Virus record (IMG/VR): IMGVR_UViG_3300046369_000854
Span: 1 to 22,204 of that record
DNA length: 22,204 bases
Source: a virus
Reading direction: 5' to 3' (one strand)
The translations under genes were made by a program, and so were the position numbers. This document shows positions 2,631 to 19,388 of the stretch, in pieces (position 1 is the first letter of the stretch; each line of letters begins with the position of its first letter). The notes under the pieces are model-generated. The model was given only the letters and a program-made list of their open reading frames with translations, made no database searches and was not told where the DNA came from.

Positions 2631-2915
2631 TTACCTCATTTTTAAATTTAATATTTCTTCCCATTCTGCATATTCTGTTTTATTAAAAGAGTTCACAGGA
2701 AACTGAGGAGGTTCAACCTTTAACCGCCTTTTTCTTTTAAAAAGTTTTTTAAACCAAACTTTTTTGCCAGTTATTGTTTTTTTAGGAGTAAAAGCAAAAG
2801 TTTTTTCCCACTTAGTTGTAATTAAGTTGTCTTCGCTATTAATAAAATCTCCTGCAATGCCTCCATTTTTCAACTGTGGATACCTCGTATATGCAGGATG
2901 GTTATAATTCTCCAT
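2631..2915 (-). CDS. Small basic protein of unknown function
   Basis: This 94-residue protein is not one I recognise. It has a tyrosine- and proline-containing start (ENYNHPAYTRYPQ), a strongly basic middle (KKVWFKKLFKRKRR, about residues 51-64) and a mixed-charge tail. There is no signal peptide or membrane segment. It overlaps the end of the kinase-nucleotidylyltransferase gene by 14 bases and ends three bases before metK, so it is clearly in the same transcript. GAGAAAGG precedes its ATG. The basic patch could bind nucleic acid, which is a guess from charge alone. Confidence 0.65.
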   Translation of the reverse strand: MENYNHPAYTRYPQLKNGGIAGDFINSEDNLITTKWEKTFAFTPKKTITGKKVWFKKLFKRKRRLKVEPPQFPVNSFNKTEYAEWEEILNLKMR

Positions 2916-3705
2916 CCTTTCTCATTTGCTCCCTGATTTTGGTAGCACTAATTTTTTGCGTTTCCTCATCTAAAACTTCTTCTTCAATTTTATAACCTAC
3001 ACCTCTACCATATGTAATATTCATAATGTTTGGTACAGGGAAACATCTGAACTTTCCGGCGTGTTCGGCCAATGCTATTTCAATGTTTTCACATATCTTA
3101 TCCACTTGCCAAGGATTGTCGTCAGTTAAAGGCATATCTCTTACAAGTAATGCTACTTGCCCATGTTTTGCCAATGCTCTTTCAAATAACTTTTGATGTC
3201 CTTCGTGCCATGGTTGAAATCTTCCTAACATTTGTGTAGTTGGTTGTTTAGGTTGGAATTCATGATCTTTAATATCAACAGCAATCAACCTTGCCCATTC
3301 TTCAACTTTTTCTTCAGTCCACCATTCATCTTTTTTTATAATAGCATTAACTTTAACACTATCCATTGTGGGCTTTTCAAACATTGCATTTGTGTCTTCG
3401 TATCTGCCTTCTTCAATTGTGTCCATCCAAATAACATACTCAGGAACATGTTGCTCACGAAGTTGATTTGTAGGACAAACAAAATCTGCTACACCATATT
3501 GTCCTTTAGCAACACTTTTACGAACATAATCTCGCATACGCAATGCTTGTCTTTCTCTGCCTTCTGGAGAAAAGTCCCAATCATTAAATGTTTCTCTTAT
3601 TTTATCTGCGTTATGCCAATCTGCATTACCTAATATCTCTACTAGTTTCTCTGCAAGAGTAGATTTACCTGAGCCAGGTAATCCAAAAATTAATACTCGT
3701 TTCAT
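2902..3705 (-). CDS. Fusion of APS-kinase-like P-loop kinase and nucleotidylyltransferase
   Basis: The protein (267 residues from the chosen start) has two domains. Residues 1 to about 150 form a P-loop kinase: GLPGSGKST at 8-16, then ADKIRETFNDWDFSPEGR (34-50), VADFVCPTNQLRE (72-84) and a YVIWMDT strand (90-96), spaced as in adenylylsulfate (APS) kinase. Residues 157-267 form a small HxGH nucleotidylyltransferase: GRFQPWHEGH at 161-170 and ISATKIRE at 252-259, closer to NMN or cytidylyl transferases than to ATP sulfurylase. If the first half is a true APS kinase it would make PAPS, the donor for the sulfotransferase at 19502-20185. The start at 3705 makes an ATGA overlap with the upstream gene and has GGAG upstream; an ATG at 3723 would add six residues. 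The substrate of either half is unproven. Confidence 0.85.
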   Translation of the reverse strand: MKRVLIFGLPGSGKSTLAEKLVEILGNADWHNADKIRETFNDWDFSPEGRERQALRMRDYVRKSVAKGQYGVADFVCPTNQLREQHVPEYVIWMDTIEEGRYEDTNAMFEKPTMDSVKVNAIIKKDEWWTEEKVEEWARLIAVDIKDHEFQPKQPTTQMLGRFQPWHEGHQKLFERALAKHGQVALLVRDMPLTDDNPWQVDKICENIEIALAEHAGKFRCFPVPNIMNITYGRGVGYKIEEEVLDEETQKISATKIREQMRKDGEL

Positions 3706-4472
3706 CTGTTTTCTCTCTCCCATTCTGCATTTTCATCGAACTCTGCAAGATATTCATCAATGTTTTCATCGATGTTTTCCTGAGTGTCGTGCCACTTAGT
3801 ATTTAACCAGCCTACTTGAGCATCATAACTTTTACCGGTGCTGTCCATGTAATCATAATCACATTCTAATTCAACTTTGTCATAAAAAACTGCATCAACA
3901 AATTCTGCTAGATTTGTCTCTACAACACCATATCCTAATTTAAATTCATCAAAGTCTTCGCCGTCTGTTTCAACAAACCAAGCACCAAAGCCACCTTTCT
4001 CTGAACTATGAAACATAAGTACAGGTACATATTCATTACCTTCCTCATCCTTTTCATTTATTAATTCAGGTTGGTCATCAGTACTAAAGTAGCCACCTTC
4101 TCTGCCATAAACATGAATTGCTTCTCCTTCATATACTTCATTATCGTGATCCCAATCGTCTGAACCATCTGCTGGAACTTCGTATACTGTAAATCCACCA
4201 TCTGCATAGGCACTATTAATGTGTTCAAAGTTATCATTTTCCCACATATAAAAGTCTTCACCAGGCATTGCAGGATGTGGTATTCCATCTGGATCTAATA
4301 ATGCATCAGAGGTTTCTTCCTCTTTTGGTTCCCAATCTTCTGCTTCTAAAACTGCGTCAACAAGTTCATCTTGTTTATCTGCATAATAACTTACAAATGC
4401 AGGATTAACTTCTCCTAAAACTGCCTCTCCACCGTATCTGCCGCCTTCTATTCTAAATTTTCTTTTTGCCAT
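3702..4472 (-). CDS. Highly acidic protein of unknown function
   Basis: This 256-residue protein has about 70 Asp/Glu residues by my count (roughly 27 percent) and many aromatics, but no membrane segment, signal peptide or known catalytic motif. The first 20 residues (MAKRKFRIEGGRYGGEAVLG) are basic and glycine-rich, unlike the rest. I have an impression of similar proteins in marine T4-like phages, without a known role. Its ATG overlaps the stop of the membrane protein upstream and GGAGG precedes it, so it should be well translated. The charge would suit a DNA mimic or a protein binding a basic partner; this is inference from composition only. Confidence 0.75.
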   Translation of the reverse strand: MAKRKFRIEGGRYGGEAVLGEVNPAFVSYYADKQDELVDAVLEAEDWEPKEEETSDALLDPDGIPHPAMPGEDFYMWENDNFEHINSAYADGGFTVYEVPADGSDDWDHDNEVYEGEAIHVYGREGGYFSTDDQPELINEKDEEGNEYVPVLMFHSSEKGGFGAWFVETDGEDFDEFKLGYGVVETNLAEFVDAVFYDKVELECDYDYMDSTGKSYDAQVGWLNTKWHDTQENIDENIDEYLAEFDENAEWERENR

Positions 4473-4888
4473 TACGCCTCCTTATTTGGGTTCCAAATTG
4501 TTAAATTACTTTTTTTGAGTCTGTTAGCAACAATAGTATATCTATTTTGTTCTTCTTTCCACTCTTTAAGCCACTTATGACCATCACGTTCTGCATCTAT
4601 AAAGATTGCATTAGTAAATGCTAATGGAAGTAATATAGCAACATGTATAATTATACTTGCTACTGTATTGTATCCAAATATTCCTAAGTAATTTGCGGCT
4701 AAGAAGCCAAAGAATACACTCCATACAGTAAACAGTACTAACATAAAGTAAGTCTGCAAACTTGGATCTGGAATATACTTTAGTGGATTGTATCTTACAT
4801 CCATTACACGCCTCCAACCATTTACAAGACTCATTACAACTCTTCTAAATAAACTTGGCTTTTTCATTATTGGTTCAATTTTACTCAT
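4472..4888 (-). CDS. Two-helix membrane protein of unknown function
   Basis: This 138-residue protein has two clear hydrophobic segments, about residues 46-68 (YFMLVLFTVWSVFFGFLAA...) and 76-98 (VASIIIHVAILLPLAFTNAI...). The N-terminal 40 residues are basic (KKPSLFRRVV, NGWRRV), which by the positive-inside rule places both ends in the cytoplasm. The tail after residue 100 is soluble and charged. AGGAGAATAAA lies just before the ATG. A 31-residue membrane peptide gene sits immediately upstream, so the two may work together in the host inner membrane. I recognise no family; a holin is possible in principle, but nothing specific supports it. Confidence 0.75.
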   Translation of the reverse strand: MSKIEPIMKKPSLFRRVVMSLVNGWRRVMDVRYNPLKYIPDPSLQTYFMLVLFTVWSVFFGFLAANYLGIFGYNTVASIIIHVAILLPLAFTNAIFIDAERDGHKWLKEWKEEQNRYTIVANRLKKSNLTIWNPNKEA

Positions 4889-4897
4889 TTTATTCTC

Positions 4898-4993
4898 CTA
4901 TTCTATATGGTTTCTAACATACTCTTTTATTACATGCATACCATATGATGCCCATGTAATAACTATCAAACTCCAGATTAACAACTCTAACAT
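4898..4993 (-). CDS. 31-residue single-span membrane peptide
   Basis: A short frame encodes 31 residues with one hydrophobic stretch (LLIWSLIVITWASYGMHVI) and a charged C-terminus (KEYVRNHIE). Its ATG shares one base with the stop of the upstream 165-residue gene (TAATG), and it ends 10 bases before the next gene, so it fills the only gap between them. That exact fit in a tightly packed operon is the main reason to believe it is real. No strong Shine-Dalgarno is seen, so it would rely on coupling. The function is unknown. Confidence 0.55.
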   Translation of the reverse strand: MLELLIWSLIVITWASYGMHVIKEYVRNHIE

Positions 4994-5490
4994 TACACTA
5001 GATCTGCTATCTGAACGTCTTTAACTTTATTTGCCTCTTTTACAAAATATGCACATTTTGGATTAGGCCCATCTTCTAATGGAACTGCCAACAAGTGACC
5101 ATTTTTTAATTTAGGAAAATACCATTTTACATCTTGGTAAACATTGGTAATCCCTACTTCTAGGCTCTGTGGAATCCTTGTAGTTAATGGATTCATTACA
5201 AGAGATCTAAAGCCTCTATTGTTAAGGCTTGCTAATGGTAAAACTTCCATGCCATCAAGATCCTCATCACACAATAATATACTCCAGTCCATAGGCATTT
5301 GTACATTATACTGGCCTATTTGTAAGCAAATTGCTGGAGCATGAAAACTCTCTAAAAATATTAGAGGTAAGAAGTAAAAATCCACAAATTCAGGATCGCC
5401 TCCATCAATAATACAATATCTTATATCGTCTATTTCGTCTGGTACACAATCTATATCATATGTGTCATTTTCTACTGTTAGTATTTTCAT
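4993..5490 (-). CDS. Conserved unknown protein next to uvsW
   Basis: This 165-residue soluble protein has no motif I can tie to an activity. Noticeable stretches are DWSILLCDEDLDGMEVLPL (about 68-86), NNRGFRSLVMNPL (90-102) and DVKWYFPKLKNGHLLAVPL (120-138). I recall related unknown proteins in marine T4-like phages, which suggests a core but uncharacterised role. AGGAAAAAAT precedes the ATG. It lies nine bases after uvsW and starts a run of abutting genes that continues to the left edge. Confidence 0.75.
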   Translation of the reverse strand: MKILTVENDTYDIDCVPDEIDDIRYCIIDGGDPEFVDFYFLPLIFLESFHAPAICLQIGQYNVQMPMDWSILLCDEDLDGMEVLPLASLNNRGFRSLVMNPLTTRIPQSLEVGITNVYQDVKWYFPKLKNGHLLAVPLEDGPNPKCAYFVKEANKVKDVQIADLV

Positions 5491-5499
5491 ATTTTTTCC

Positions 5500-6960
5500 T
5501 TATTTTTTATACTCAACTTTAGTTACTTGGAACCTAAAACCCTGCTCTTTGTAAAAGACTTTACGTTTTGTTAAATGCCTTTTACTATATTTTAAATTAC
5601 TAGTAATGTCTAATACATTTACATAGTCTTTATCAGATGCTTTTCTAATGCCTCTGCCTATACTTTGTATTACCCTTACAAAACTTTTTCCAGGTTCTAA
5701 CATAACTAAATTAAATATTCTTGGTATATTAATACCCACCGCCGCAACACCATATGTTGCAACTATTACTTTATTATCCATTTGAGAAACATCATCATAA
5801 TTTTCTTGTCTGTCTGCCTGTTTCATTGAACCAGATACAAATACCCAGTCAGGATTCAACTCTTCTAAACGTTCTCCTGTTGCTATTCTATCTATTAAAA
5901 CTAACGTATTACCATTTACTGCAACACCTTTAATTATTTCAGATATTTCCTTTAGCCTTTTTTCATCAGTTACTAGCCATTTCAACTCTTGAGCATAGTT
6001 TCCAAATTGTATCATTCCATCTTGTAGTTGCAAAATACTAATATCTAAGTCTGCAAGTACACCCATGTCCTGTAATTCTTTACTGCTCATTTTTCCTACT
6101 ACAGGACCTAAACTACAAGTACAACCAACTGCGTCATACTCCTCTTTAGGGATAGTTCCTGTAAGTCCCCATCTAATAGGAACATTCGCAAAAACACCAC
6201 TTAATAAATTTCTTAAGACGTCTGCTTTTGCTTTATGGACTTCATCTACCATTACACAGGCAACATTATCTAAAAATTGATCTATTGGAAAATCTGCCTC
6301 ATAATTTTTACTTTTCTTTTCTAATATACTTAAACTTTGCCATGTGCAAATTGTATGTGTTTTATCATATTCTTTTCTGTCACCATACAATACACCAACA
6401 TCTAAGCCTAAGTTTTTATAATCTTTTTCTGTTTGCACAACTAAATCTTTATTAGGCACTATAACTATAGTCCTGCCATAATCTTCACACTTATGACTAA
6501 GTACGGCTGTAATTAATGTCTTACCAGCACCTGTGGCAATTTCCTGCAAACATTGTGTGTTCTCTAAAAACTTATTAATTATCTCAACCTGATAATCTCT
6601 GAGTATAATAGGCTGTCCTTCTGCTGGATGTTTTTTAGGCCATGCAACATTGTCATAACTAGTTTGTTCTACTTTGTCGAATTCGAAACTCCAGGGTTGC
6701 CTATGATCTATTATTTCTATCTCATACCCTTCTTCAGTAATAATAGGTACTAGTTTATCCAATAACTGAAAATATGTTCTGCCTCCAATATCACAATACC
6801 TCACACACCCGTCCCATCTGCCTAATTTATAAGCAGGCATGTGATACGCATGAGGTAAAAAATATTTACAAGCATCAGAAATCTTTCGTCTTGCTTTCAC
6901 ATCAAGCCCTTTAAAACGAACATTTACTTCGTCTCTTATTTCTAAAACACATTTAGCCAT
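5500..6960 (-). CDS. uvsW: UvsW-like recombination helicase
   Basis: UvsW is the T4 superfamily 2 helicase that unwinds R-loops and branched DNA and moves replication from origins to recombination-primed forks. The 486-residue protein has the expected set: Q-type RDYQ near 121-124, Walker A ATGAGKT at 142-148, the DEVH box at 239-242, motif III GLTGT at 265-269, and motif VI QSIGRGIRK at 432-440. The roughly 100 residues before the helicase core match the small N-terminal domain of UvsW. There is no Shine-Dalgarno; instead a perfect TTGACA/TATAAT promoter ends five bases before the ATG, which predicts a leaderless mRNA. The promoter lies in the end of the receptor gene upstream. Confidence 0.95.
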   Translation of the reverse strand: MAKCVLEIRDEVNVRFKGLDVKARRKISDACKYFLPHAYHMPAYKLGRWDGCVRYCDIGGRTYFQLLDKLVPIITEEGYEIEIIDHRQPWSFEFDKVEQTSYDNVAWPKKHPAEGQPIILRDYQVEIINKFLENTQCLQEIATGAGKTLITAVLSHKCEDYGRTIVIVPNKDLVVQTEKDYKNLGLDVGVLYGDRKEYDKTHTICTWQSLSILEKKSKNYEADFPIDQFLDNVACVMVDEVHKAKADVLRNLLSGVFANVPIRWGLTGTIPKEEYDAVGCTCSLGPVVGKMSSKELQDMGVLADLDISILQLQDGMIQFGNYAQELKWLVTDEKRLKEISEIIKGVAVNGNTLVLIDRIATGERLEELNPDWVFVSGSMKQADRQENYDDVSQMDNKVIVATYGVAAVGINIPRIFNLVMLEPGKSFVRVIQSIGRGIRKASDKDYVNVLDITSNLKYSKRHLTKRKVFYKEQGFRFQVTKVEYKK

Positions 6961-6965
6961 AGTTT

Positions 6966-6995
6966 ATTATACTACCAATTGTACTGTAATGTCAA
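6966..6995 (-). promoter_or_regulatory. Sigma-70 promoter for uvsW, abutting its start codon
   Basis: On the minus strand TTGACA (6995-6990) and TATAAT (6971-6966) are both perfect, with an 18-base spacer. The -10 is followed by AAACT and the uvsW ATG, so transcription should begin at or next to the A of the start codon. The element spans the last codons and stop of the upstream receptor gene. Confidence 0.7.
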
Positions 6996-8657
6996 GTTAA
7001 TTTGTCTGCCTTGGTTATTGTAGTATGGTAATACTTCAACTTCCTCATCAGTAATGTTGTCTATTGCAAAGTTTAAATTCATTCCATTAGTAAATCTTTT
7101 TGTAATATATACACTAAGTTTTGTAAGATCTTCTAGGAACTCTTGTCCTTCTGAAAGAACGTCATAAGGTCCAGGTGCTCTATCAAACTGTCCTGAATAT
7201 TGTACTTTATAATTTACGTCTTTAAACATCTGTTGCCATGTAATAACACCAACATACTCTGGTATTCTAGTTTGGTCTGTATCATTAACTTTTAGATTAA
7301 TACTAAAAGGTCCCCATGTATTAGCAAATCTAATACCCTGAGTATCATACGCACCTGAATTATTATATTTTGCATTATAATAAATTTCTTCATTTATTTG
7401 TTCAGTTAAAAGATTTCCATCTGCATCATATGTAGCAGGTGCAACCAATACTGTTTCTGAATATGGTGCTGTATATTCTATCGCTTCTTCAAATTCGTAT
7501 TTAAAAATACTGATGGCACCAAATCCTATTTCATACCCAACTCCTTCCTCTGGAAGTAATTCTTCATTAGGATCTACAAAAGCATCACCATAAAGTTCAT
7601 ATAAGTTAGGTCTCCTATAACTGGTACCTACATTAAAAAAGAACTGATCTTTTGCAATACCTAATCTTAGAGCATTTTGATCATTGTTTCCGTATCTAAT
7701 ACCAAAGTTGTATTCTAAGGCAAACTTGGCATTTACACTAAAAAAGGCTCCGTAATTGTCTTGTTCTTGTTCCATGTATTGATCTTTGCTACCATCAACA
7801 CCATAAGTGACATCTAATAAATTAGATAATTTTGCTGTATCGCCTACTCTAAAAAAGTCTCTGCTACTTTCATTTTGATATGTACTAACACCTTCAGTAA
7901 AATATTCTGCTTTGTCTTCTGATCTTCCTATTGTGAAGTATTCGTTTCTAATACTTACTGTGAATCTTTCTCCGTCCTGTAAGCAATCGTTACTTTGTGT
8001 CCAACTAGCAGTATAACAATTATCATAATCGTATTCATAATCTGTTGCAGTAACATACAATGTAAAGTCACCTGCATCTGCAATAATTTTTGCACTAGTA
8101 TTTTCGTAAGTGTCTTCTTCTTCGTTATCGTTTCTTGCATTTTGCTTTACAGAAAAATCTGTAATCTGCATCCAGTTTGTAGGTGCTACTGAGATATACC
8201 TATGTGACTGATTACCAAGTCTGCCTGTTACACCTTTCTTAATTAAGTCTTTTATTAAAACTGTACCACCAATACTTCCTGAGCCATACATTACACTATT
8301 GGCTCCGCTAATTACTTTAACATCTTCCCCTGATACAATATCATGTGCAAAGTCATACCAACCTGAACCAGGTGTATTTTGCGGTATACCATTTCTGTAA
8401 ACTGCTGTATGTACAGATTGTGTACCTCGCTCTCTGAATAAAACATTGCCTCCATAGCCTCCTGCTATGTAAGTAACATCAGGCATAATACTGGTAATTA
8501 ATTTTGTATCAGTAAGTGAATCTGTTTCTGTTGCCTTAACTTCTTGTGCAATAACAATTACTTCTTCTACATCTTCAGCAAGTGCATAGGCTGTCCAAAG
8601 TGGTAAAGTAATAACGATTGCAATTTTAATTATATTCTCATAAAGGAATCTTTCCAT
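6972..8657 (-). CDS. Phage-encoded TonB-dependent outer-membrane receptor
   Basis: TonB-dependent receptors are outer-membrane beta-barrels that import iron chelates, vitamin B12 or other large nutrients using TonB energy. This 561-residue protein has a signal peptide (basic start, hydrophobic 12-25, ALA cleavage site at 25-27), a TonB-box-like EEVIVIA at 31-37, and a plug domain ending in YGSGSIGGTVLIKD at 124-137 with VYRNGIP at 86-92 where the family has its VDGVP-like motif. The rest is strand-rich and ends in QINLTLQYNW, a barrel end with a terminal aromatic. It is short for the family (about 600-900). The ATG at 8657 has GGAG nine bases upstream; an ATG at 8678 has none. It has its own consensus promoter and follows a terminator. 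The ligand is unknown. A role in superinfection exclusion or nutrient uptake during infection is inference. Confidence 0.9.
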   Translation of the reverse strand: MERFLYENIIKIAIVITLPLWTAYALAEDVEEVIVIAQEVKATETDSLTDTKLITSIMPDVTYIAGGYGGNVLFRERGTQSVHTAVYRNGIPQNTPGSGWYDFAHDIVSGEDVKVISGANSVMYGSGSIGGTVLIKDLIKKGVTGRLGNQSHRYISVAPTNWMQITDFSVKQNARNDNEEEDTYENTSAKIIADAGDFTLYVTATDYEYDYDNCYTASWTQSNDCLQDGERFTVSIRNEYFTIGRSEDKAEYFTEGVSTYQNESSRDFFRVGDTAKLSNLLDVTYGVDGSKDQYMEQEQDNYGAFFSVNAKFALEYNFGIRYGNNDQNALRLGIAKDQFFFNVGTSYRRPNLYELYGDAFVDPNEELLPEEGVGYEIGFGAISIFKYEFEEAIEYTAPYSETVLVAPATYDADGNLLTEQINEEIYYNAKYNNSGAYDTQGIRFANTWGPFSINLKVNDTDQTRIPEYVGVITWQQMFKDVNYKVQYSGQFDRAPGPYDVLSEGQEFLEDLTKLSVYITKRFTNGMNLNFAIDNITDEEVEVLPYYNNQGRQINLTLQYNW

Positions 8658-8702
8658 TTTTAAATTCTCCGTGACCATTTAGTCATAATAGTTTTAGTAT
8701 TA

Positions 8703-8730
8703 ATTATACACGAACAATATGTTTTGTCAA
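8703..8730 (-). promoter_or_regulatory. Perfect-hexamer sigma-70 promoter for the TonB-dependent receptor
   Basis: On the minus strand TTGACA (8730-8725) and TATAAT (8708-8703) are both perfect, with a 16-base spacer. The predicted leader is about 40 bases and contains the GGAG ribosome binding site. It lies just after the terminator that closes the AAA+ gene, so the receptor is an independent unit readable by unmodified host RNA polymerase. Confidence 0.8.
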
Positions 8731-8733
8731 GCA

Positions 8734-8770
8734 TAAAAAAGAAGAAACCCCCAAATAAATGAGGGTTTCT
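8734..8770 (-). terminator. Rho-independent terminator after the AAA+ ATPase gene
   Basis: On the minus strand AGAAACCCTC pairs with GGGGGTTTCT (10 pairs, one of them T-G) around an eight-base loop, followed by TCTTTTTT. It separates the AAA+ ATPase gene from the receptor promoter. Confidence 0.85.
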
Positions 8771-8774
8771 AAAA

Positions 8775-8802
8775 GTGTTCAAAGTGGGAGGGTTTTGAAC
8801 AC
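8775..8802 (-). repeat. Second hairpin between the AAA+ gene and the terminator
   Basis: A perfect 9-base inverted repeat, GTGTTCAAA / TTTGAACAC, encloses a 10-base loop, 19 bases past the AAA+ stop codon and just before the terminator. No T-run follows it directly. It may shield the 3' end of the AAA+ mRNA from exonucleases or assist termination. Confidence 0.65.
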
Positions 8803-8821
8803 TAGGGGGAACATGGGAGAC

Positions 8822-9853
8822 CTACTTATCGATCAGTCTCCTCATGCAAGTTGACTCTGCCAATTGTTTCCAATTATCGAAATCCATCTTGGCCAAGTCA
8901 GCAATTTTAAGTACCATTCTTAAACTAAGTTCCCTAAGTCTAGCACTTTTCAAAACCATAAAGTCTACTATTTCCTTTTCAAACTCTTTACTAAAGCCAT
9001 ATGATTTCAACATACCGTCTCTAATAATTTGATTAATTCTAATAAACTTATCACTAGTAGTATCCATTCCAAGATCAATGTAATGACATCTACTCATTAA
9101 TGCTTCTAAGTGATCTTGTATTTTCTTACTTCTAACATTTTCAAAGTTTACATTAGTAATAAAAATTACACCACCTGAGAATTCAAACCTATCAGGAATG
9201 CCTTCTCTTCTTAAAGCCTGTGATTCTGCTTTCCAACTAATTGTTCTCTTTTTACCAGAGTCCAAAACAGCCTTCAACATGTTCAAACATACCTCATCAA
9301 ACAAAATGCTATCACAGTCATCAAATACAAGTATGTCACCTTTGTTTGAATTATTGTATAGAGTCTGGTAGAGTCCAATTGGTGTCATTGAACCTTTTAC
9401 AACTTCTGTTCTTGGAGGTTGTCCTGACAGTTTTGTCATTGAGTCGTATTCATCAAGTATAGTCTCTACACCAAAACTTTTACCAACTCCTGGAGGGCCA
9501 CTTACTATAAGTCCTCTTACTGTACCATTTGCAACTGCATCAGTCATTTGATCTAAAACAGCAAACCTTCCAGCAATTCTATCCATTGCCTGTTGTTGCG
9601 TTTCTTTTTTCTTTTTAGTCTTCTTGACTGGCATTGTAGATTGATAATCTTCTTTACTAGCAGGTTCAACACTAAGTGGTGAGTCAACTAAAATTCTAAC
9701 TCTTTTAGCATTTGGTCCCATTAAAGAACTACCATCAACAGTAACAAAAGCACCTTTCTTTCCAAAGGTTAATTGTTTTACTACTGGGAATACCGCATCT
9801 TTAATAGGTGCATTACGGTAAGTACCTTTTTTAATTTTTACAAAGTTTTGCAT
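8822..9853 (-). CDS. AAA+ ATPase of unknown role
   Basis: The 343-residue protein has Walker A GPPGVGKS at 119-126, Walker B ILVFDDCD at 174-181 and a sensor-1 strand VIFITN at 229-234. A lysine-rich linker (KKTKKKK, about 77-83) joins this to an N-terminal domain of about 60 residues that looks like a small beta-barrel, possibly KOW- or SH3-like. It is not the clamp loader gp44, whose N-terminal signature is absent. I recall similar ATPases in marine T4-like phages; remodelling of a replication or recombination complex is a guess. The ATG at 9853 has GGGAGGAAAT just before it; a GTG at 9865 lies inside that ribosome binding region and is unlikely. It has its own promoter and ends at two hairpins. 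Confidence 0.88.
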   Translation of the reverse strand: MQNFVKIKKGTYRNAPIKDAVFPVVKQLTFGKKGAFVTVDGSSLMGPNAKRVRILVDSPLSVEPASKEDYQSTMPVKKTKKKKETQQQAMDRIAGRFAVLDQMTDAVANGTVRGLIVSGPPGVGKSFGVETILDEYDSMTKLSGQPPRTEVVKGSMTPIGLYQTLYNNSNKGDILVFDDCDSILFDEVCLNMLKAVLDSGKKRTISWKAESQALRREGIPDRFEFSGGVIFITNVNFENVRSKKIQDHLEALMSRCHYIDLGMDTTSDKFIRINQIIRDGMLKSYGFSKEFEKEIVDFMVLKSARLRELSLRMVLKIADLAKMDFDNWKQLAESTCMRRLIDK

Positions 9854-9888
9854 ATTTCCTCCCACGGATTAATTAAACTTACTATATA

Positions 9889-9916
9889 AGTATAACAAAT
9901 TTTCTATATTTGTCAA
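9889..9916 (-). promoter_or_regulatory. Sigma-70 promoter for the AAA+ ATPase gene
   Basis: On the minus strand TTGACA (9916-9911), a 16-base spacer and TATACT (9894-9889). The predicted leader is about 30 bases and holds a strong GGAGG. The -35 box contains the TGA stop codon of the 51-residue gene upstream. Confidence 0.75.
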
Positions 9917-10068
9917 CCTATAATGTTAGATAAAACAGAAAAGAATATCCAAATACCAATTATAGTACCAATGACTTCTTCTAAGCCACCAGATGCATTA
10001 TCAAGCAACATATTAATAGTCCAAATAATTGAACCTATAATGCCTAATCCGCCTATAAATGATAACAT
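9913..10068 (-). CDS. 51-residue two-helix membrane peptide
   Basis: A short frame encodes 51 residues with two hydrophobic segments, roughly residues 4-21 (FIGGLGIIGSIIWTINML) and 31-50 (VIGTIIGIWIFFSVLSNIIG), joined by a polar DNASGGLEE loop. Its own sigma-70 promoter lies upstream and GGAG stands six bases before the ATG, both strong support for a real gene. Its stop lies inside the -35 box of the next promoter. A small two-helix membrane peptide could modify the host inner membrane or act as a holin-like or antiholin-like protein; nothing decides between these. Confidence 0.72.
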   Translation of the reverse strand: MLSFIGGLGIIGSIIWTINMLLDNASGGLEEVIGTIIGIWIFFSVLSNIIG

Positions 10069-10100
10069 ATATTACTCCTATTTCCTAACTAACTATATAT

Positions 10101-10128
10101 AGTATAGCATTTTTTGGAGTATTGTCAA
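10101..10128 (-). promoter_or_regulatory. Sigma-70 promoter for the 51-residue membrane peptide
   Basis: On the minus strand TTGACA (10128-10123), a 16-base spacer and TATACT (10106-10101). The predicted leader is about 26 bases and contains the GGAG ribosome binding site. It sits just past the stop of the glycosyltransferase-like gene. Confidence 0.75.
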
Positions 10129-10135
10129 CCTTTTT

Positions 10136-11308
10136 TTATTGATTTATTAGGAGGGATTGGTTATGTTTTAGTATTGGCATCATATCCCAATACATTTCAT
10201 GTAGTTCTTCTATGGGTTTGTCATTAAGTTCTTTAACAACATCAGTCACCATATTTACTTTCTTTATGGGGTCTATTTCATTATCATAATCTTCGTTCCA
10301 ATAATTACTAAATGTTTTATATCCCATACTTCTTAAATGGTCTAAAGTACCTGTACAACAATAGATTACCTGTGGATGTAAATTTAACATAGGTCGTGTT
10401 GTTTTTTCAGTAATAAACATTTCTGTATGAAAAGGTTTGAGATAATTATTTAATTCTTCATCATCAAATTGATCTGCAAGTGTATAACATTCTGAACTTT
10501 CAGTAGTTACAGTAAAATAAGAATTTTCATATACATATCTGTAATCACCTACTTTATTCCAGTCTCCACCATCATCTCCTGTCCATTCTACAATTTCAAA
10601 TAATGTATCAAATGCTGTCTGCCAATCACCTTTAATATCGCATTGTATAGGTAAAAGTTTTTGTAATTCTTCTGGCACAGAAAACTGTGGCATAAAATCT
10701 ACATCTTTATAGTAATGAAAACTAGTTAATTTATCTGTCTCTATTAATCCCTTTTCCCACATAGACAGCATAAATCTCTGTCTGTGTGCTAACATATTTC
10801 TATTAAAACAATTAAATTTATGTTTTCTAATATCTGTGGGTGCTTCTGTAGTAAATTTTAAATAATCGTAATATCTTTTATTCTTACCATATAGTTCAAA
10901 ACCAAAGTGTTCATAATCACAATTTATTTTACCGTCATTTGGAGCATGTAAAGAATGCCATTTATTATATGAACTTTCTACTGTAGCACTTGCTGATAGA
11001 AATGTAATATTTTCTAATGGTATATTATATTTTTTTGCAAATTTGTGTATTGTGCCTGCCCACCATTCACCATTGACTAACCATAAGGTACCTTCACTAG
11101 TATACCTAAAAATTATATCTATTTGTTTTGAATAACTTGGGTCTGCTTCTAATTTGTTTACAAGATCTTTTGTAAGTGTTACTGAAAAATCTTCAAAATT
11201 AGTTCTTGCTCTTTCTTCGCAGTCTTGTAAATTAAAGTGATGGACTATTCTATCACTATGTCTTCCATTCCTGCCGTTCTCAATCTCGTTATGTGTCCTA
11301 TCTGCCAT
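10136..11308 (-). CDS. Glycosyltransferase-like protein (GT10/fucosyltransferase-like C-terminus)
   Basis: The C-terminal third of this 390-residue protein carries FITEKTTRPMLNLHPQVIY (298-316) and LRSMGYKTFSNYWNEDYD (325-342). This pattern resembles the donor-binding end of fucosyltransferase-like proteins found in marine viruses. Earlier parts (WLVNGEWWAGTIHKFAKKY, 76-94; FNCFNRNMLAHRQRF, 165-179) fit a glycosyltransferase-B style protein but carry no definite motif. It would transfer a sugar from a nucleotide donor to an unknown acceptor such as a virion protein, host surface glycan or DNA. Its only possible start overlaps the end of uvsY by 64 bases; no ATG, GTG or TTG follows within the next 100 codons or so. 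It is the last gene of the gp32-uvsX-uvsY run. Confidence 0.6.
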   Translation of the reverse strand: MADRTHNEIENGRNGRHSDRIVHHFNLQDCEERARTNFEDFSVTLTKDLVNKLEADPSYSKQIDIIFRYTSEGTLWLVNGEWWAGTIHKFAKKYNIPLENITFLSASATVESSYNKWHSLHAPNDGKINCDYEHFGFELYGKNKRYYDYLKFTTEAPTDIRKHKFNCFNRNMLAHRQRFMLSMWEKGLIETDKLTSFHYYKDVDFMPQFSVPEELQKLLPIQCDIKGDWQTAFDTLFEIVEWTGDDGGDWNKVGDYRYVYENSYFTVTTESSECYTLADQFDDEELNNYLKPFHTEMFITEKTTRPMLNLHPQVIYCCTGTLDHLRSMGYKTFSNYWNEDYDNEIDPIKKVNMVTDVVKELNDKPIEELHEMYWDMMPILKHNQSLLINQ

Positions 11309-11706
11309 TGCTTTGTATCCAATCCTTTCATTATGCCTAAGTATTTATTTCTCAAAAGGCTAAATTGGTTCACAAGGTGAGTTAGATCTATAACTGATTG
11401 TTCACCATCTACAAACTTATCTGCATCTCTACTGCTCAAAGTTCTATTATAATTTTCCAAATATTTTCTGAATGTTTTAGAACGTTCTTTGCGAAGTTCT
11501 ATATTTAGATGTTCGAGAATTGCTTCAATCTCTTGTAGTTGATTGAAGCGAAACTCTGTCAGACCGGGTAGGGAGGAGGAGGCTTTCTCCAAACTCCCTT
11601 TGATCTTTACTTCCCATCTTGCTTCGTTCAATTCTTTTTCGTAATACTCGATTGCCGGAACTATATTACCTAAGTCTTGAACAATATTATTATAATGGGT
11701 AGCCAT
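11245..11706 (-). CDS. uvsY: UvsY-like recombination mediator
   Basis: UvsY helps load UvsX recombinase on gp32-coated single-stranded DNA. The 153-residue protein is mostly helical and charged, a little longer than T4 UvsY (137). The stretch from FRKYLENYNRTLSSRDADKF to the end (GLDTKQWQIGHITRLRTAG) resembles the UvsY of cyanophages as I recall it. The location, two genes after uvsX and in the gp32 operon, supports the call. GGGAATAAT precedes the ATG, a weak ribosome binding site. Its last 64 bases also encode the start of the glycosyltransferase-like protein in another frame. Confidence 0.82.
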   Translation of the reverse strand: MATHYNNIVQDLGNIVPAIEYYEKELNEARWEVKIKGSLEKASSSLPGLTEFRFNQLQEIEAILEHLNIELRKERSKTFRKYLENYNRTLSSRDADKFVDGEQSVIDLTHLVNQFSLLRNKYLGIMKGLDTKQWQIGHITRLRTAGMEDIVIE

Positions 11707-11709
11707 ATA

Positions 11710-11943
11710 TTATTCCCAATCCTCTTCGTCATCATCATCGTCTAATCCGAATTCATAATGACTAATTAGTGCCGCCTTCATTACTGAATCAAATTGATTT
11801 AGATTGTCTTCTACTTCTGATATATCCAATTGATCATCAAAAACTCTTACAATCTCTTCAGCAACATGAAGTCGTTCCTTTACTGCTACATATGGTTTAA
11901 CACTATCCCATATATTATAAAGTAACTCTATATCAGGATTCAT
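11710..11943 (-). CDS. Small acidic protein between uvsX and uvsY
   Basis: This 77-residue protein is helical and ends in a strongly acidic tail (GLDDDDDEEDWE). It overlaps the end of uvsX by 11 bases and ends three bases before uvsY, with GGAGG upstream of its ATG. I recognise no family. Its position suggests a helper in presynaptic filament assembly, and the acidic tail could contact UvsX, UvsY or gp32, much as gp32's own acidic tail does in T4. This is inference from context. Confidence 0.75.
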   Translation of the reverse strand: MNPDIELLYNIWDSVKPYVAVKERLHVAEEIVRVFDDQLDISEVEDNLNQFDSVMKAALISHYEFGLDDDDDEEDWE

Positions 11944-13039
11944 CTGTATAATCCTCCATATTAGGTTCTAGTTCTTCTGGATCAATATCTTCTATTACAT
12001 CATCCTGTGCTATAGGATTTTGACCCCATTCATCTAAAATTACTTGAAGTTTATCATCAGTCCAGCCTTTTCTGAACTCTTTGATTTCTTCACCAGTAAC
12101 TGGCGATACATAAGAAAGTTTGTTGCCGACTTTAACCACAATGCCTTTTGCTTCTAACATTTCTAACATACCACTATAAGGGTCCATTCCTGTTTCATAT
12201 GGAATCTTGATCTGCACACCTTCAAAAGGTTTACTGTATCTTGACTTCATAACTTTACAGGCGGCTCTTATACCTTGCACAGAAGATACTTTGTTTCCGT
12301 CTGCATCTTCTTTTAGTTTTAGTTTTTTAATTGCAACTACAATACTTGATGCATAGATAAAGCCTTGACCACCTGAGATCTTGTCGTCTGGGTCAAACAT
12401 ATCTTGTGATGCATATGTATGGTTAGTTGCTACAATACCAATTGGAAATGGTGCAATTTGGTTAACTGTGTTTCTAACTAAAGACGCCAATGCCTTTGGT
12501 TTTCTACCCATATCACCTTTCATATCACCTTTCTCAAATTGAGTTACGTCAGTAGGAGTTAATAACATTCCTAAACTATCTATAACAAATAGTAATTTAG
12601 GCATATCTTCATATGCCATATCGCCATAATTGTTTTTGTAGTCTTTCATAAATTCACTTATTGCTTTAGCAACATCGTCAATCATTGAAACACTAATTTT
12701 TAATAGTTTTTCTGGTGACGTATCAACATCCAATGCCTGTAACCATTGTTCATCCAATGCATTCTCAGAGTCAAATAATACTACTTGACATCCTTGATCT
12801 TGTGCATTTTTAACAATGTTTCCAGAACATATAAACGATTTACCAGAACCTGATTCACCTGCAAATACACTAACTTTACCTAGTGGGATACCTCCATTGA
12901 AGTCCCCACTTATTAGGTAGTCTAATGTTTTGTTACCAGTACTAATCCAATCCTTTGGGTCATGGAATCCAGCACTAATACCAGTTATGCTTTTGGTTAA
13001 ACCGGTTCTGAACTTTGTTAAGTCAAATGGCTTTTGCAT
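11933..13039 (-). CDS. uvsX: UvsX recombinase (RecA family)
   Basis: UvsX is the T4 strand-exchange recombinase that pairs homologous DNA during recombination-dependent replication and repair. The 368-residue protein has Walker A GESGSGKS at 61-68, Walker B LLFVIDSLG at 149-157 and the IPLGKVSVFAGE lead-in typical of UvsX and RecA. The C-terminal 30 residues are acidic (DDVIEDIDPEELEPNMEDY), as in RecA. GGAGAG precedes the ATG. It starts nine bases after gp32 and is followed by overlapping small genes, so gp32, uvsX and uvsY should be made together. Confidence 0.96.
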   Translation of the reverse strand: MQKPFDLTKFRTGLTKSITGISAGFHDPKDWISTGNKTLDYLISGDFNGGIPLGKVSVFAGESGSGKSFICSGNIVKNAQDQGCQVVLFDSENALDEQWLQALDVDTSPEKLLKISVSMIDDVAKAISEFMKDYKNNYGDMAYEDMPKLLFVIDSLGMLLTPTDVTQFEKGDMKGDMGRKPKALASLVRNTVNQIAPFPIGIVATNHTYASQDMFDPDDKISGGQGFIYASSIVVAIKKLKLKEDADGNKVSSVQGIRAACKVMKSRYSKPFEGVQIKIPYETGMDPYSGMLEMLEAKGIVVKVGNKLSYVSPVTGEEIKEFRKGWTDDKLQVILDEWGQNPIAQDDVIEDIDPEELEPNMEDYTDES

Positions 13040-13048
13040 AATCTCTCC

Positions 13049-14065
13049 TTACGACTGTCTGTTTCTGATCATGTTAAGAATATCATCTGCTGATTTCTTA
13101 CCAGTATCTCCTGCAGGAGCAGTTGCTACTGTTTCAGCCGCTGGTGCTGGTGCAGTCTCTACCGCTGGTGCAGTTGTTTCCGCTACTACAGGTTCTGGAG
13201 CACTTACAGGTGCCACACTCTCTGTTGTAGTTGTTTGTACAGTTTGAGCTGGAGCCACAGTTGCCTGTGTTTTTGTTCCAGTATCAAGTCCATAGGGTTT
13301 GAAAAAGTTGCCCCATTTTTCTGGGTCATACAGTTCTCCATCTACTGATGCTTGGAACATCTCTGCTATCGCTTGTACACCTTCTGCTGTTGGTTTAGCA
13401 GGAAGGAAGTCGTTTAAGTTATACAAACCATGTGTATCAATTGCCGCTAAATTCTCTTCAGTAAGACCACTTTCTTTTCGTGCCCATTTACTTGTAGAAT
13501 AGTCTGCGTATTGACCTTTGGTTGTTTTAGATAATCTAAAGTCAGTACCTGCAACATAGTCTGTTGGAAGGTTTTCCATCTCTGGGTCCATAAGTGCTGA
13601 TTTGATTATGTTAAATATTTGAGGACCAATTACAAATCTTCTAATTGGATTCTCTGGTGATGTTTCATCTAAAGGATTTTCATTTACAAACCCTTGGAAA
13701 ATGTAACTTCTTTTTTTCCAGTACTTTCTACCCATGTCTTCGAGACTTGGATCTTTAAACCAAGGACGTACCTCAGTTAATACTGGACATGTTTCGCCAA
13801 ACATTTCCATACAAGGAACTTGTACAGTTGTTGGCTTTTGATCACCGCCTACTATTCCTGGGAATGTAAGTCTGATCATTTGTCGTTCTACCCAAAAGAA
13901 CGTGTTGTTTGGATCACTGTCAGGCAGGAATCGTAGTAAAGTACTACTTCCTTCGTCTATGTTCCAAAATGGGTATATTGCGTTATCGCTTTGAGCTTGG
14001 GAGTTACCTTTGGATTTGCTTTCCATTGATTGTAACTTTGCTCTTATTTCTGCTAATGAGGCCAT
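13049..14065 (-). CDS. 32: Single-stranded DNA-binding protein gp32
   Basis: gp32 coats single-stranded DNA in replication, recombination and repair. The 338-residue protein matches marine gp32 versions: a basic N-terminal helix with MESKSKGN (14-21), YPFWNIDEGSSTLLRFLPD (31-49), FFWVERQMIRLTF (56-68), and CMEMFGETCPVL with Cys85 and Cys93. T4 uses His and three Cys for zinc, so the zinc site here is reduced or absent. From about residue 257 the tail is rich in Ala, Pro, Thr, Val and Glu and ends in a short charged helix (KKSADDILNMIRNRQS). I chose 14065 because GGAG lies eight bases upstream; an ATG at 14089 lacks one. It has its own sigma-70 promoter and a hairpin in the leader, suggesting autogenous control as in T4. 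Confidence 0.93.
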   Translation of the reverse strand: MASLAEIRAKLQSMESKSKGNSQAQSDNAIYPFWNIDEGSSTLLRFLPDSDPNNTFFWVERQMIRLTFPGIVGGDQKPTTVQVPCMEMFGETCPVLTEVRPWFKDPSLEDMGRKYWKKRSYIFQGFVNENPLDETSPENPIRRFVIGPQIFNIIKSALMDPEMENLPTDYVAGTDFRLSKTTKGQYADYSTSKWARKESGLTEENLAAIDTHGLYNLNDFLPAKPTAEGVQAIAEMFQASVDGELYDPEKWGNFFKPYGLDTGTKTQATVAPAQTVQTTTTESVAPVSAPEPVVAETTAPAVETAPAPAAETVATAPAGDTGKKSADDILNMIRNRQS

Positions 14066-14093
14066 GATATTTTCTCCTATATTTGCCATGTTC

Positions 14094-14121
14094 GTAATAC
14101 CTTCTGTGTTTAGGGTATTAC
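14094..14121 (-). promoter_or_regulatory. Leader hairpin of gp32 mRNA, possible translational operator
   Basis: A perfect 8-base inverted repeat (GTAATACC / GGTATTAC) with a 12-base loop lies between the predicted transcription start (about 14124) and the gp32 Shine-Dalgarno. In T4, gp32 represses its own translation by binding from a structured 5' leader. The structure here is simpler and its role is inference. Confidence 0.5.
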
Positions 14122-14130
14122 TAGTTTTTT

Positions 14131-14159
14131 ATTATAATGCCAAGATGTAAAAAAGTCAA
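14131..14159 (-). promoter_or_regulatory. Sigma-70 promoter for the gp32-uvsX-uvsY operon
   Basis: On the minus strand TTGACT (14159-14154), a 17-base spacer and TATAAT (14136-14131). A perfect 11-base inverted repeat (14146-14172, TGTAAAAAAGT / ACTTTTTTACA) overlaps the -35 box and could be an operator or a terminator for the gene upstream. The predicted gp32 leader is about 60 bases. Confidence 0.7.
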
Positions 14160-14172
14160 GAACTTTTTTACA
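14146..14172. repeat. Perfect inverted repeat over the gp32 promoter -35
   Basis: TGTAAAAAAGT and ACTTTTTTACA (11 bases each, 5-base loop). On the minus strand the right arm ends in a T-run, so it may weakly terminate transcription from the 715-residue gene. Because it covers the -35 box it could also bind a dimeric regulator. Confidence 0.55.
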
Positions 14173-14211
14173 ACTATTGGAAATTAAATTACTTTATGTT
14201 TCCAACAAGTT

Positions 14212-14219
14212 TATTTATC
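14212..14219 (-). promoter_or_regulatory. Possible late-type promoter upstream of gp32
   Basis: GATAAATA on the minus strand lies in the intergenic stretch after the 715-residue gene, reading toward gp32. It differs from the T4 late -10 (TATAAATA) at the first base. It could give gp32 a late transcript in addition to the sigma-70 one. Confidence 0.35.
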
Positions 14220-14233
14220 TATAAAGTAGTATT

Positions 14234-16381: not shown

Positions 16382-16386
16382 ACAAG

Positions 16387-16394
16387 TATTTATC
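16387..16394 (-). promoter_or_regulatory. Late-type promoter abutting the start of the 715-residue gene
   Basis: GATAAATA on the minus strand is followed by CTTGT and the ATG. The upstream TGA stop of gp17 overlaps the box. T4-type late initiation six bases after the box would start the RNA at the A of ATG. Confidence 0.6.
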
Positions 16395-17988
16395 AGATTA
16401 TGCCAATTGGCATAGGATCATCGTAGTCATCATCGTCGCCGCCTGTGGAATATAGAGAATCTACACCTAAACTGTTATTTACAGCATCATATACTTCATC
16501 TTCAAAAGTACTTACATAGTCTATTACTCTGACAGCAATCATCATGCTCATGACCAAATCATCTGAATCGCCTGGTCTTGCCGCAAAACTATTACCTTTT
16601 GATACAAAGTTTTTAAATTCTGATAAACATGCTTTACTATTAATAGTAAGTTTATCATTTTCTATTAACCTTTTCATATTGATACAAGACTCTACTTTAA
16701 CTTTATGAGTAGTATGGAATCCTCTTCTACCTGTCTTACCTTGTATTCTTTTAGGCTCGTGTAAGAAATCTCCTGGGAAAGCATCTTCTCCGGTATCTCT
16801 GATCACCACAAGTGCGGCCTCTCCAATTGCATTGTTCTCAACTGTCCAATATATAGTATGGGCGCCTTGTTCCTTAATGAAATGCATGATCTCTAACATG
16901 ACCTTTATCTGCCCTTCTATAGGAGTTTTATTATGATACCATTCACCTACTTGTACCATTGACGGTAATTCTACTATTTGTATAGCGGCATTGTCACCGC
17001 CTGTTCCTGTACTTGGATCTAGTGTTACTACATAGATATGCTCTGGACTAGGATATTTGAACCAACGTACATTGCCCATTTTCATAATAGGATCTTTGCC
17101 GTTTAGTTCTAATAATTTTAACTGATTGATAAGAGTTTCGTCATATATAACAAATTCACATTCGTGTTCACGTTTAAAACGTTCAGTGCCTATTCTTCCT
17201 CTTTCTTCTATTGCCCAATTGGCATCTCTATCAGGGTGCTCGTCCCATTTTGCTAGTAATGGTTTAAATCCATTTACGCCTACTTCTTGTTCGTTCCCAT
17301 GCTCATCAAACATTTTGTTTGCTTGGTTCCATATATTAGCAAAGGTATCTTCATCACTATTAGGCGTACTTGTAATAATACATTTACCACCTGTTGCTAG
17401 TGTAGGAGATAATGCTGTCCAAAACTCACTGGCAATTCTAGGAGGAACAAATGCAAACTCGTCTAAGTATACTAATGTAAGTGACATACCCCTACCTGTA
17501 TTTTCTGTAGTTGTTGCACTTACTATTCTACTACCATTGTCAAATGCCATAGACCCTTTGTTATATTCTGTAACACCTGCTCTTATATGATCTGGTACAC
17601 TTTCATATGCATAACGTATACGTTGCATAATTTCATATGCACCTGCCGCCTTGTGAGCCGCAACAAGTATTGTACTGTCAGGCTTAAACATAGCATACCA
17701 TAGTAAGTATCCTGCGGCTACAGTGGTTTTACCCATCTGTCTACCCAGCATGTTAATACTGTATCTAAAATTGTTGTAATTTTCTATTAAATCTAACTGA
17801 TACGCAAAGGGATCGAAATCTATTCCGCCTTTAGTAGGATGTTGTATTTTGACGTGATTATTCATAAAGTACAAAGGCCCGCCCACAGGATCTGCACAAT
17901 TTTTAAAATCTTCTAGGGTATCTGGAGTATATGCTGTTCTACTATAGCCTTGTTTAACCAGACCGGTATCTACTGTTCCTCTTGCCAT
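16393..17988 (-). CDS. 17: Large terminase subunit gp17
   Basis: gp17 is the DNA-packaging motor: an ATPase that pumps DNA into the prohead and a nuclease that cuts concatemers. The 531-residue protein has Walker A GRQMGKTT at 82-89, Walker B LVYLDEF at 172-178, the TSTPN coupling motif at 206-210, and an RNase H-like nuclease domain starting with VVTLDPSTGTGGD (320-332, Asp324). The acidic pair in GDSDDLVMSM near the end would complete the metal site. The ATG has no Shine-Dalgarno; a CATAAATA late box lies five bases before it. It is separated from gp16 by two conserved unknown genes and the sulfotransferase cassette. Confidence 0.97.
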   Translation of the reverse strand: MARGTVDTGLVKQGYSRTAYTPDTLEDFKNCADPVGGPLYFMNNHVKIQHPTKGGIDFDPFAYQLDLIENYNNFRYSINMLGRQMGKTTVAAGYLLWYAMFKPDSTILVAAHKAAGAYEIMQRIRYAYESVPDHIRAGVTEYNKGSMAFDNGSRIVSATTTENTGRGMSLTLVYLDEFAFVPPRIASEFWTALSPTLATGGKCIITSTPNSDEDTFANIWNQANKMFDEHGNEQEVGVNGFKPLLAKWDEHPDRDANWAIEERGRIGTERFKREHECEFVIYDETLINQLKLLELNGKDPIMKMGNVRWFKYPSPEHIYVVTLDPSTGTGGDNAAIQIVELPSMVQVGEWYHNKTPIEGQIKVMLEIMHFIKEQGAHTIYWTVENNAIGEAALVVIRDTGEDAFPGDFLHEPKRIQGKTGRRGFHTTHKVKVESCINMKRLIENDKLTINSKACLSEFKNFVSKGNSFAARPGDSDDLVMSMMIAVRVIDYVSTFEDEVYDAVNNSLGVDSLYSTGGDDDDYDDPMPIGII

Positions 17989-17993
17989 AATAG

Positions 17994-18001
17994 TATTTAT
18001 G
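17994..18001 (-). promoter_or_regulatory. Late-type promoter abutting the gp17 start
   Basis: CATAAATACTATT on the minus strand is one base from the T4 late form TATAAATACTATT, and the ATG follows at once. A leaderless gp17 mRNA is predicted. Confidence 0.65.
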
Positions 18002-18012
18002 TGGTAATGATG

Positions 18013-19310: not shown

Positions 19311-19332
19311 ACTTAAACTCCGTTGATATACT

Positions 19333-19383: not shown

Positions 19384-19388
19384 AAGGT

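Follow-up and report, generated by a model that had tools for sequence, protein, structure and literature searches.

The window, a 22,204-base virus record (positions 1 to 22,204 of the IMG/VR record IMGVR_UViG_3300046369_000854), carries on its minus strand a gene for a 561-residue TonB-dependent outer-membrane receptor of a BtuB-like branch (6972..8657), an assignment drawn from the open frame, the Pfam Plug domain, an AlphaFold2 model with its fold matches, and a family profile. Our analysis confirmed the gene as complete by sequence and model, with a signal-like N-terminus, a TonB box, a plug, a predicted 22-strand barrel, and a terminal aromatic residue. The predicted fold is closest to that of the vitamin B12 transporter BtuB. 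We propose that the phage makes its own TonB-energised outer-membrane importer in infection and that this importer may bring in corrinoid cargo of the vitamin B12 type, a reading that we find plausible while stopping just short of calling it probable.

The receptor and its likeness to BtuB

The gene lies in an open frame (8678..6972, minus strand) of 568 codons counted from the first ATG. The second ATG, at 8657, is preferred as the start because a ribosome-binding GGAG in the sequence (8667..8670) points to it. The initial annotation had placed the gene at 6972-8821; the end at 6972 stands, while coding starts at 8657 and 8658-8821 is intergenic. The same annotation had described a complete TonB-dependent receptor and named structure prediction as its check, and both were borne out: the AlphaFold2 model, built from a 20-row alignment, contains a plug and a 22-strand barrel (pLDDT 84.3, pTM 0.80). 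The hydrophobic signal peptide was recognised by eye (residues 1-27, 8577..8657, putatively cleaved after ALA, likewise by eye), and the model opens with an N-terminal helix followed by a low-confidence stretch. The TonB box VEEVIVIA (residues 30-37, 8547..8570) and the plug domain (residues 38-132, 8262..8546; PF07715, E 4.8e-10, above cut-off) come next. The predicted beta-barrel spans residues 142-560 (6978..8234), with strands counted by hand from DSSP of the model; the count of 22 assigns a hairpin at 399-406 to an extracellular loop. The C-terminal residue is W, so that plug, 22-strand barrel, TonB box, and C-terminal aromatic, the four features of a TonB-dependent receptor, are all present.

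These features are conserved across the family, for which 97 sequences, 96 from complete loci plus the window, were aligned. PF07715 was matched in 20/20 members scanned. The TonB box has a mean pairwise identity of 0.67 in the 20-row alignment, and its strict pattern is found in 86/97 sequences; the eight inspected of the 11 misses are variants such as IEEVIVYA. The C-terminal residue is W in 81 sequences, K in 14, Y in one, and I in one, and Y precedes the terminal K in the rows inspected. Twelve residues are invariant in 97/97: E31 and V35 of the TonB box, D177, N178, E180, D182, Y209, Y211, D212, C214, C225, and G229. Four of these lie in an acidic loop, NDNEEED, between barrel strands 3 and 4 (residues 176-182, 8112..8132), and five (Y209 to C225) in an acidic and cysteine-containing stretch, DYEYDYDNCY...C, formed by the end of strand 5 and the following loop (residues 206-225, 7983..8042). 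Two alleles, at L057:10001-12031 and L061:9944-11947, carry about 100 extra residues, mostly in two stretches that the window model maps to extracellular loops.

Profile and structure comparisons led to the same transporter. Against the PDB, the family profile matched E. coli BtuB over positions 56-528 of 530 (E 6e-21); among its 14 matches the full-length ones were BtuB only, and the other eight, at E of at least 0.018, covered the plug region. Alignment to BtuB with hhalign spanned 456 columns with a probability of 99.2. In VIA-align, E. coli BtuB scored Z 36.4 with the window model (501 residues, rmsd 2.6, 18% identity) and Z 37.6 with a model of a receptor from a second genomic setting (group B, below). 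With both models the top 15 rows held B12 transporters only, 11 of E. coli BtuB followed by four Bacteroides BtuB entries; the latter ranged from Z 32.3 to 34.1 over the two models, with minima of 32.3 (window) and 32.9 (group B), and ZnuD was the next family (Z 31.0 and 31.5, respectively). Foldseek likewise placed BtuB first (E 1e-19), and the B12-receptor model of NCBIfam matched 17/20 members, more than any other model. In the model, the second and third extracellular loops contain the invariant acidic residues. In BtuB, loops 2 and 3 carry Ca2+ ligands next to the cobalamin site; the phage residues would sit in the matching loops, although sequence alignments to BtuB disagree in this region.

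Distribution, genome slots and allele exchange

The initial annotation had regarded a phage-encoded receptor as rare and called for a search in related phages. That search succeeded, and the supposed rarity did not survive it: the protein query found 64 receptor loci in viral contigs and the 20-row profile found 216 relatives. We read 118 loci (L002-L119), drawn from the 64 query loci and the best 80 of the 216 profile relatives. A complete single frame was present in 96, 22 were cut by a contig end, and none was broken. The contigs stem from many different samples, and the receptor occurs as one copy per record in 21/21 records searched. A tblastn search of a collection of 50,697 deposited phage records gave no receptor match. 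The nearest bacterial receptors, also proposed as a target, were not found by two motif-limited scans of a collection representing each of 84,980 prokaryote species by one genome (28 and 234 pattern matches, no relative); divergent bacterial kin may be missed because these scans need short peptide patterns. Plasmids yielded just three plug-sized tblastn matches (E 3e-3 to 5e-3). E. coli BtuB itself matched 53 records of the phage collection, and the 25 listed appeared by eye to be bacterial-looking sequence filed as phage or unannotated gut contigs.

The phage belongs among the jumbo phages by its sequence affinities. The window terminase and UvsX are closest, among the 50,697 phage records, to those of PA5oct and kin, Phosso, Atu_ph07, XaC1, and CBB; terminase identity to PA5oct and kin is 57.6%, UvsX is also close to GAP32 and SCTP-2, and PA5oct is classified under Arenbergviridae. 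On these affinities the window is part of a marine jumbo phage genome within the T4 superfamily and not of a classical T4 phage genome, so that the narrow "T4-like" label of the initial annotation has to be widened, with PA5oct among the nearest deposited kin. "Marine" is used because related contigs and sequences are marine.

The receptor occupies several slots. In 68/118 loci, as in the window, it lies between a gene for a T4 nrdC.10-like AAA protein and uvsW; the AAA side alone is visible in 10/118 and the uvsW side alone in 7/118. It stands just before the AAA gene in four of the 118, plus four with one side visible, and in L068, L087, and L119 its neighbors are g10136 and uvsW, the AAA gene going undetected as if replaced. 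No window gene was found near the receptor in 22/118 loci. Eleven of these were intercompared: L059 stands apart (group C), and ten have common neighbors (group B), the window being placed in group A. The group B receptor adjoins a gene of 181 aa, with baseplate wedge, endolysin, and late sigma genes nearby as well as an SbcD-like protein closest to PA5oct-like phages. In a search of 29 records for the 181-aa gene, 14 matched, three of them group B, and the homologues in 11 group A records are separated from the receptor by roughly 3 to 4.5 kb, on its downstream side. The slot can also be empty. Among the best 80 of 170 uvsW loci, the receptor adjoins uvsW in 62, is absent despite upstream sequence in 13, and could not be judged in five too short. 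Nine of these 13 have a clean gap of some 110 nt between the end of the AAA gene and uvsW; the remaining four, which are less closely related, show either a different short frame at this place or no AAA match.

The receptor is far more variable than its neighbors. Among 44 non-redundant loci of the 59 with intact receptor, uvsW, and AAA genes (946 pairs), median pairwise protein identity was 50% for the receptor, 67% for AAA, and 78% for uvsW, and 82% for uvsX over 561 of the 946 pairs. Individual pairs depart from their surroundings in both directions. Identity between L091 and L112 is 93-96% for five flanking genes but drops to 49% for the receptor, while the receptors of L024 and L025 are 89% identical against 65-76% for three flanking genes. 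Group B shows both kinds of pair: L080 and L109 have receptors of 45% identity although each of the 12 listed flanking genes is at 73-97%, and the L080 and L089 receptors are 91% identical where the 11 matching flanking genes reach 29-85%. In three pairs, nucleotide identity drops and recovers within about one 100-nt step of the receptor gene edges. The receptor, uvsW, and AAA trees mutually rejected one another in the AU test, run with 1000 replicates, below the number advised by the program. These patterns indicate that receptor alleles are swapped between phages at the edges of the gene. Since the AAA and uvsW trees also reject each other, exchange appears general in these phages, with the receptor an extreme case and not the sole one.

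Selection on the receptor is purifying. Median dN/dS was 0.124 for the receptor (79 pairs of 85-98.5% identity, which are not independent), 0.113 for AAA, 0.088 for uvsX, and 0.075 for uvsW. By region, it was 0.097 in the TonB box and plug, 0.102 in strands and turns, 0.139 in the extracellular loops, and 0.271 in the signal; the loops showed no excess amino-acid change, and thus no positive selection, within allele families. The low dN/dS, together with the residues invariant in 97/97, therefore suggests that selection maintains a functional receptor together with its TonB contact.

Proposed import role, B12 context and rival explanations

Surface ocean water is poor in vitamin B12, which many marine bacteria are unable to make. 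We suggest that host polymerase transcribes the receptor gene from a promoter of a genome-wide class, that the host Sec and BAM systems would export the receptor and insert it in the outer membrane, and that host TonB-ExbB-ExbD would drive it. The receptor may then import corrinoid-type cargo during infection, with both cargo and timing inferred. Host enzymes would thereby still be supplied with cobalamin, as would, in a number of phages, a B12-binding radical SAM enzyme encoded by the phage itself, while allele swapping could retune the exposed loops to the form of the cargo, to the host, or away from phages or toxins that use the receptor.

A B12 context was sought in the receptor-carrying phages. 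The B12-binding domain PF02310 was found in 8/45 receptor-carrying records, five above cut-off. In scans of frames from five of these eight, a Radical_SAM domain was present every time and the B12-binding domain in four, the frame of G057 beginning downstream of it. In a sixth record, L059, the protein carries both domains, the B12-binding one below cut-off. The motif CxxxCxxC is kept in all eight retrieved pieces. The G013 and G014 pieces show 100% identity, and alignment of the G019 protein to the radical SAM proteins of group A gives 32-39%. Two of the group A proteins are closest to the methylcobalamin-dependent KedN5 family of NCBIfam (E ~1e-64, below its cut-off); for the L059 protein the nearest NCBIfam models are PhpK and further B12-binding radical SAM families. 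The gene is present in all three records above 200 kb and in 0/24 receptor-less records, which comprise 13 deposited jumbo phage genomes searched by tblastn (one partial) and 11 contig fragments searched by profile. In L059 and L283 (2/2 loci) just 11 nt separate the receptor stop from the start of this gene, both being on one strand. The gp46-like protein of this T4-like lineage is closest to that of Methylophilales phage Melnitz, then to those of cyanomyophages, and in L059 a CobS-like ATPase, below cut-off, follows 4 kb further on. A cobalamin riboswitch lies upstream of the btuB of the OM43 host of phage Melnitz, as given in an excerpt of PMC9004378.

At L239:530-1486 and L241:2140-3096, a gene that looks by eye like a sugar-nucleotide epimerase stands beside the B12-binding radical SAM gene; this neighbor hints at a C-methylated sugar or a surface glycan. 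At L059:17086-18150, in the lineage that pairs the receptor with the radical SAM gene, an AurF-like domain was found (PF11583, E 1.6e-12). A B12-dependent ribonucleotide reductase was considered as a reason for B12 import and rejected, the candidates falling below the NrdJ cut-off and NrdB occurring in the same record in 11/12 cases.

Several results weigh against corrinoid import. Identity to BtuB is just 18%, and the curated B12-receptor cut-off was not reached (TIGR01779, an equivalog model; 27.9 bits vs 599.7). We accordingly use the label "BtuB-like" and not BtuB, because that cut-off was missed and a shared fold shows no function. In Foldseek, PirA and PfeA, which are siderophore receptors, are interspersed with the BtuB entries from rank 3 on, and the haem-type model TIGR01786 matches 13/20 members. 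No cobalamin riboswitch was found upstream of the receptor, where two Rfam matches fell below the gathering score and belong to unrelated families. No B12-binding domain was detected in 37/45 receptor-carrying records; most of these are fragments, but they include the four long group B records (56-93 kb) and five group A records with more than 20 kb upstream (G005, G009, G012, G035, and G040). The contrast between receptor-carrying and receptor-less records is confounded by clade and habitat; fragments of 9-46 kb make up 11 of the 24 receptor-less records, and two of the three records above 200 kb are near-identical, with the third below the family cut-off. The CobS-like ATPase occurs in just 1/45 records, and below cut-off. 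Among 42 records, an NrdA-like ribonucleotide reductase was found in 12 with NrdB in 11 of the 12, and none exceeded the NrdJ cut-off; by sequence, the ribonucleotide reductase of these phages looks to be class I and not B12-dependent.

The strongest rival is a TonB-driven importer of other cargo, whether metal ions or chelated metal (zinc, copper, iron, haem); its metal site would be made up of the acidic and cysteine residues in loops 2 and 3. Those residues are kept in 97/97, and haem-receptor models match the plug. ZnuD, FhuA, ChuA/ShuA, and OprC reach Z 29-31, just 1-2 Z under the Bacteroides BtuBs, and PirA and PfeA are high in Foldseek. A class I ribonucleotide reductase, moreover, needs a metal and not B12. 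We nevertheless hold metal cargo to be rather unlikely, since E. coli BtuB stands 5-6 Z units above ZnuD with both models, full-length profile matches are to BtuB only, and B12-binding radical SAM genes are present.

The initial annotation had offered three roles: blocking of superinfection by replacing the host receptor, import of iron or vitamin in the infected cell, and trapping of virions or competing phages. Import fits best among them because the TonB box and plug are under purifying selection (dN/dS 0.097) and the fold lies on the B12-transporter side; superinfection blocking survives as a rival that we judge unlikely. In that explanation the phage receptor replaces that of the host, or a decoy absorbs rival phages, and allele swapping tracks competitors. 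TonB-dependent receptors are common phage entry points, and the receptor diverges far more than its neighbors through swapped alleles (median 50% vs 78% for uvsW). A receptor that merely blocks should have no use for a TonB box, whereas this one retains its box under purifying selection, and a mere decoy is disfavored because the energised part, TonB box and plug, is kept although a decoy should not need it. The extracellular loops lack an excess of amino-acid change within allele families (dN/dS 0.139), the AAA and uvsW trees conflict too so that exchange is not special to the receptor, and the B12 context would be left unexplained.

A place in or on the virion, with use in adsorption, is very unlikely. 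The group B gene does lie near baseplate wedge and endolysin genes, and the TonB-dependent receptor of phage Skadi has been taken to suggest an adsorption role (PMC10504331, in excerpt); the signal-like N-terminus and TonB box, however, point to export and inner-membrane coupling, and the group A receptor sits among uvsX, gp32, AAA, and uvsW genes. The receptor follows no structural gene cluster, because the group A setting differs and no window gene was found near the group B receptor. An assembly chimera or accidental scrap of host DNA, the first of which the initial annotation had named as one finding that would overturn it, has a negligible chance: it is refuted by recurrence in separately assembled contigs from many samples, 68/118 in the same slot and none broken, and it also sits poorly with the absence of a bacterial homologue in the two motif-limited scans and with a receptor GC3 of 0.19, a value that falls within the spread of the other window genes measured, seven in number.

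Corrinoid import by a phage-made receptor thus remains the reading we prefer. A wider one, more doubtful, is that marine jumbo phages maintain a private and exchangeable vitamin B12 economy, in which a BtuB-type importer, often a cobalamin-dependent radical SAM enzyme, and their own MetK would turn the infected cell into a B12 scavenger, with importer alleles traded as a cassette among several genome slots. As regards the standing of the receptor as an auxiliary metabolic gene, purifying selection is seen, no bacterial source was found in the motif-limited scans, and its function is inferred. The receptor family suggests that phages may refit infected cells to keep importing a scarce vitamin. 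If this is true, viral infection would be linked directly to vitamin traffic, a clear case of a phage-owned outer-membrane transporter would be at hand, and whether infected cells take up more cargo would become a testable question. The allele swapping is itself a natural experiment on selection acting on a phage-made surface protein.

Genomic setting and comparison with known systems

The receptor gene is preceded by a promoter, TTGACA-N16-TATAAT (8703..8730, minus strand), that matches sigma-70 at 12/12 positions. Between it and the upstream AAA gene lies an intrinsic-terminator-like hairpin with a T tail (8743..8770; 11 pairs, five G-C), which has the most pairs among the eight terminator-like sites found in 4000-22204. 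Both elements had been predicted and are present. Across 4000-22204, neither promoter-like sites (83 vs 78.7 in shuffles) nor terminator-like sites (8 vs 7.2) are enriched. With spacers of 15-19 allowed, a promoter with at most one mismatch occurs upstream of the receptor in 57/77 group A loci, the window included, and in 0/19 group B and 0/1 group C loci. The exact pattern TTGACW-N16-TATAAT has 13, 11, and 16 copies in the three records above 200 kb, all on one strand, and the reversed-pattern control 1, 1, and 0. The receptor promoter is one of a genome-wide class. The proposal of a specially "independent" unit is consequently not supported: neighboring genes have near-perfect promoters as well (9916-9889 and 6995-6966), so that an own promoter is not special to the receptor gene. 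The second of these sites (6966-6995, minus strand), at the receptor's end and ahead of uvsW, is a perfect promoter-like TTGACA-N18-TATAAT.

In the window, the upstream flank is the T4 nrdC.10-like AAA protein (phrog_1250; 8822..9865, minus strand) and the downstream flank a UvsW-type helicase (5500..6960, minus strand), each directly adjoining the receptor in 78/118 loci. The AAA gene was considered as CobS, which would have made a B12 pair in the window, and rejected, as it is nrdC.10-like and the CobS model has no window match. Genes for adenine phosphoribosyltransferase and MetK (E 6e-130, above cut-off) lie downstream of the receptor at 1006-2627, and metK is near many, not all, group A receptors among the loci listed. 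The gene at 2902-3723 combines a kinase-like N-terminal part with a nucleotidyltransferase-like C-terminal part, weakly like NadR and NMN-adenylyltransferase, and may belong to NAD metabolism. A lone opposite-strand gene inside the minus-strand block (19502-20185, plus strand) looks sulfotransferase-like by eye and has no NCBIfam match.

Phage-borne TonB-dependent receptors have been reported before, so this kind of gene is already known (PMC9723777 and PMC10504331, both in excerpt). In the first excerpt, a TonB-dependent receptor "SusC" of the marine megaphage Mar_Mega_1 and of LR745206 is read as possibly raising carbohydrate uptake during infection; like the present receptor, it belongs to a very large phage. 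LR745206 gave no match to our family profile in a search run without a positive control. One strong viral structure match was obtained, at 13% identity, to A0A8D9FQQ5, a "TonB-dependent receptor SusC [uncultured marine phage]", which we guess to be the Mar_Mega_1 protein. In the second excerpt, the pelagiphage Polarivirus skadi has an annotated TonB-dependent receptor, common ground with the present family as a marine phage gene; unlike ours, it is flanked by tail tube and capsid genes and is tied to adsorption. Our literature search, mostly by title, recognised no phage BtuB-like receptor family, and in the literature searched we found no report of a phage-specific branch of BtuB-like receptors that occupies several slots, exchanges alleles, and has B12 enzymes as neighbors.

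Phage genes aimed at TonB-dependent receptors are represented by Llp, a superinfection-exclusion lipoprotein that acts on FhuA. An FhuA-Llp entry appears in our VIA-align lists because of FhuA. Exclusion proteins of the Llp type are small and bound to the host receptor, whereas the present phage protein is itself a full receptor. With the BtuBs of E. coli and Bacteroides it shares the plug, the predicted 22-strand barrel, the TonB box, and putatively the acidic residues in loops 2 and 3, at about 18-20% identity to the E. coli protein and 14-16% to those of Bacteroides. In contrast to BtuB, it has no riboswitch found upstream, its loops are shorter, it carries an invariant Cys pair, and it is encoded by a phage.

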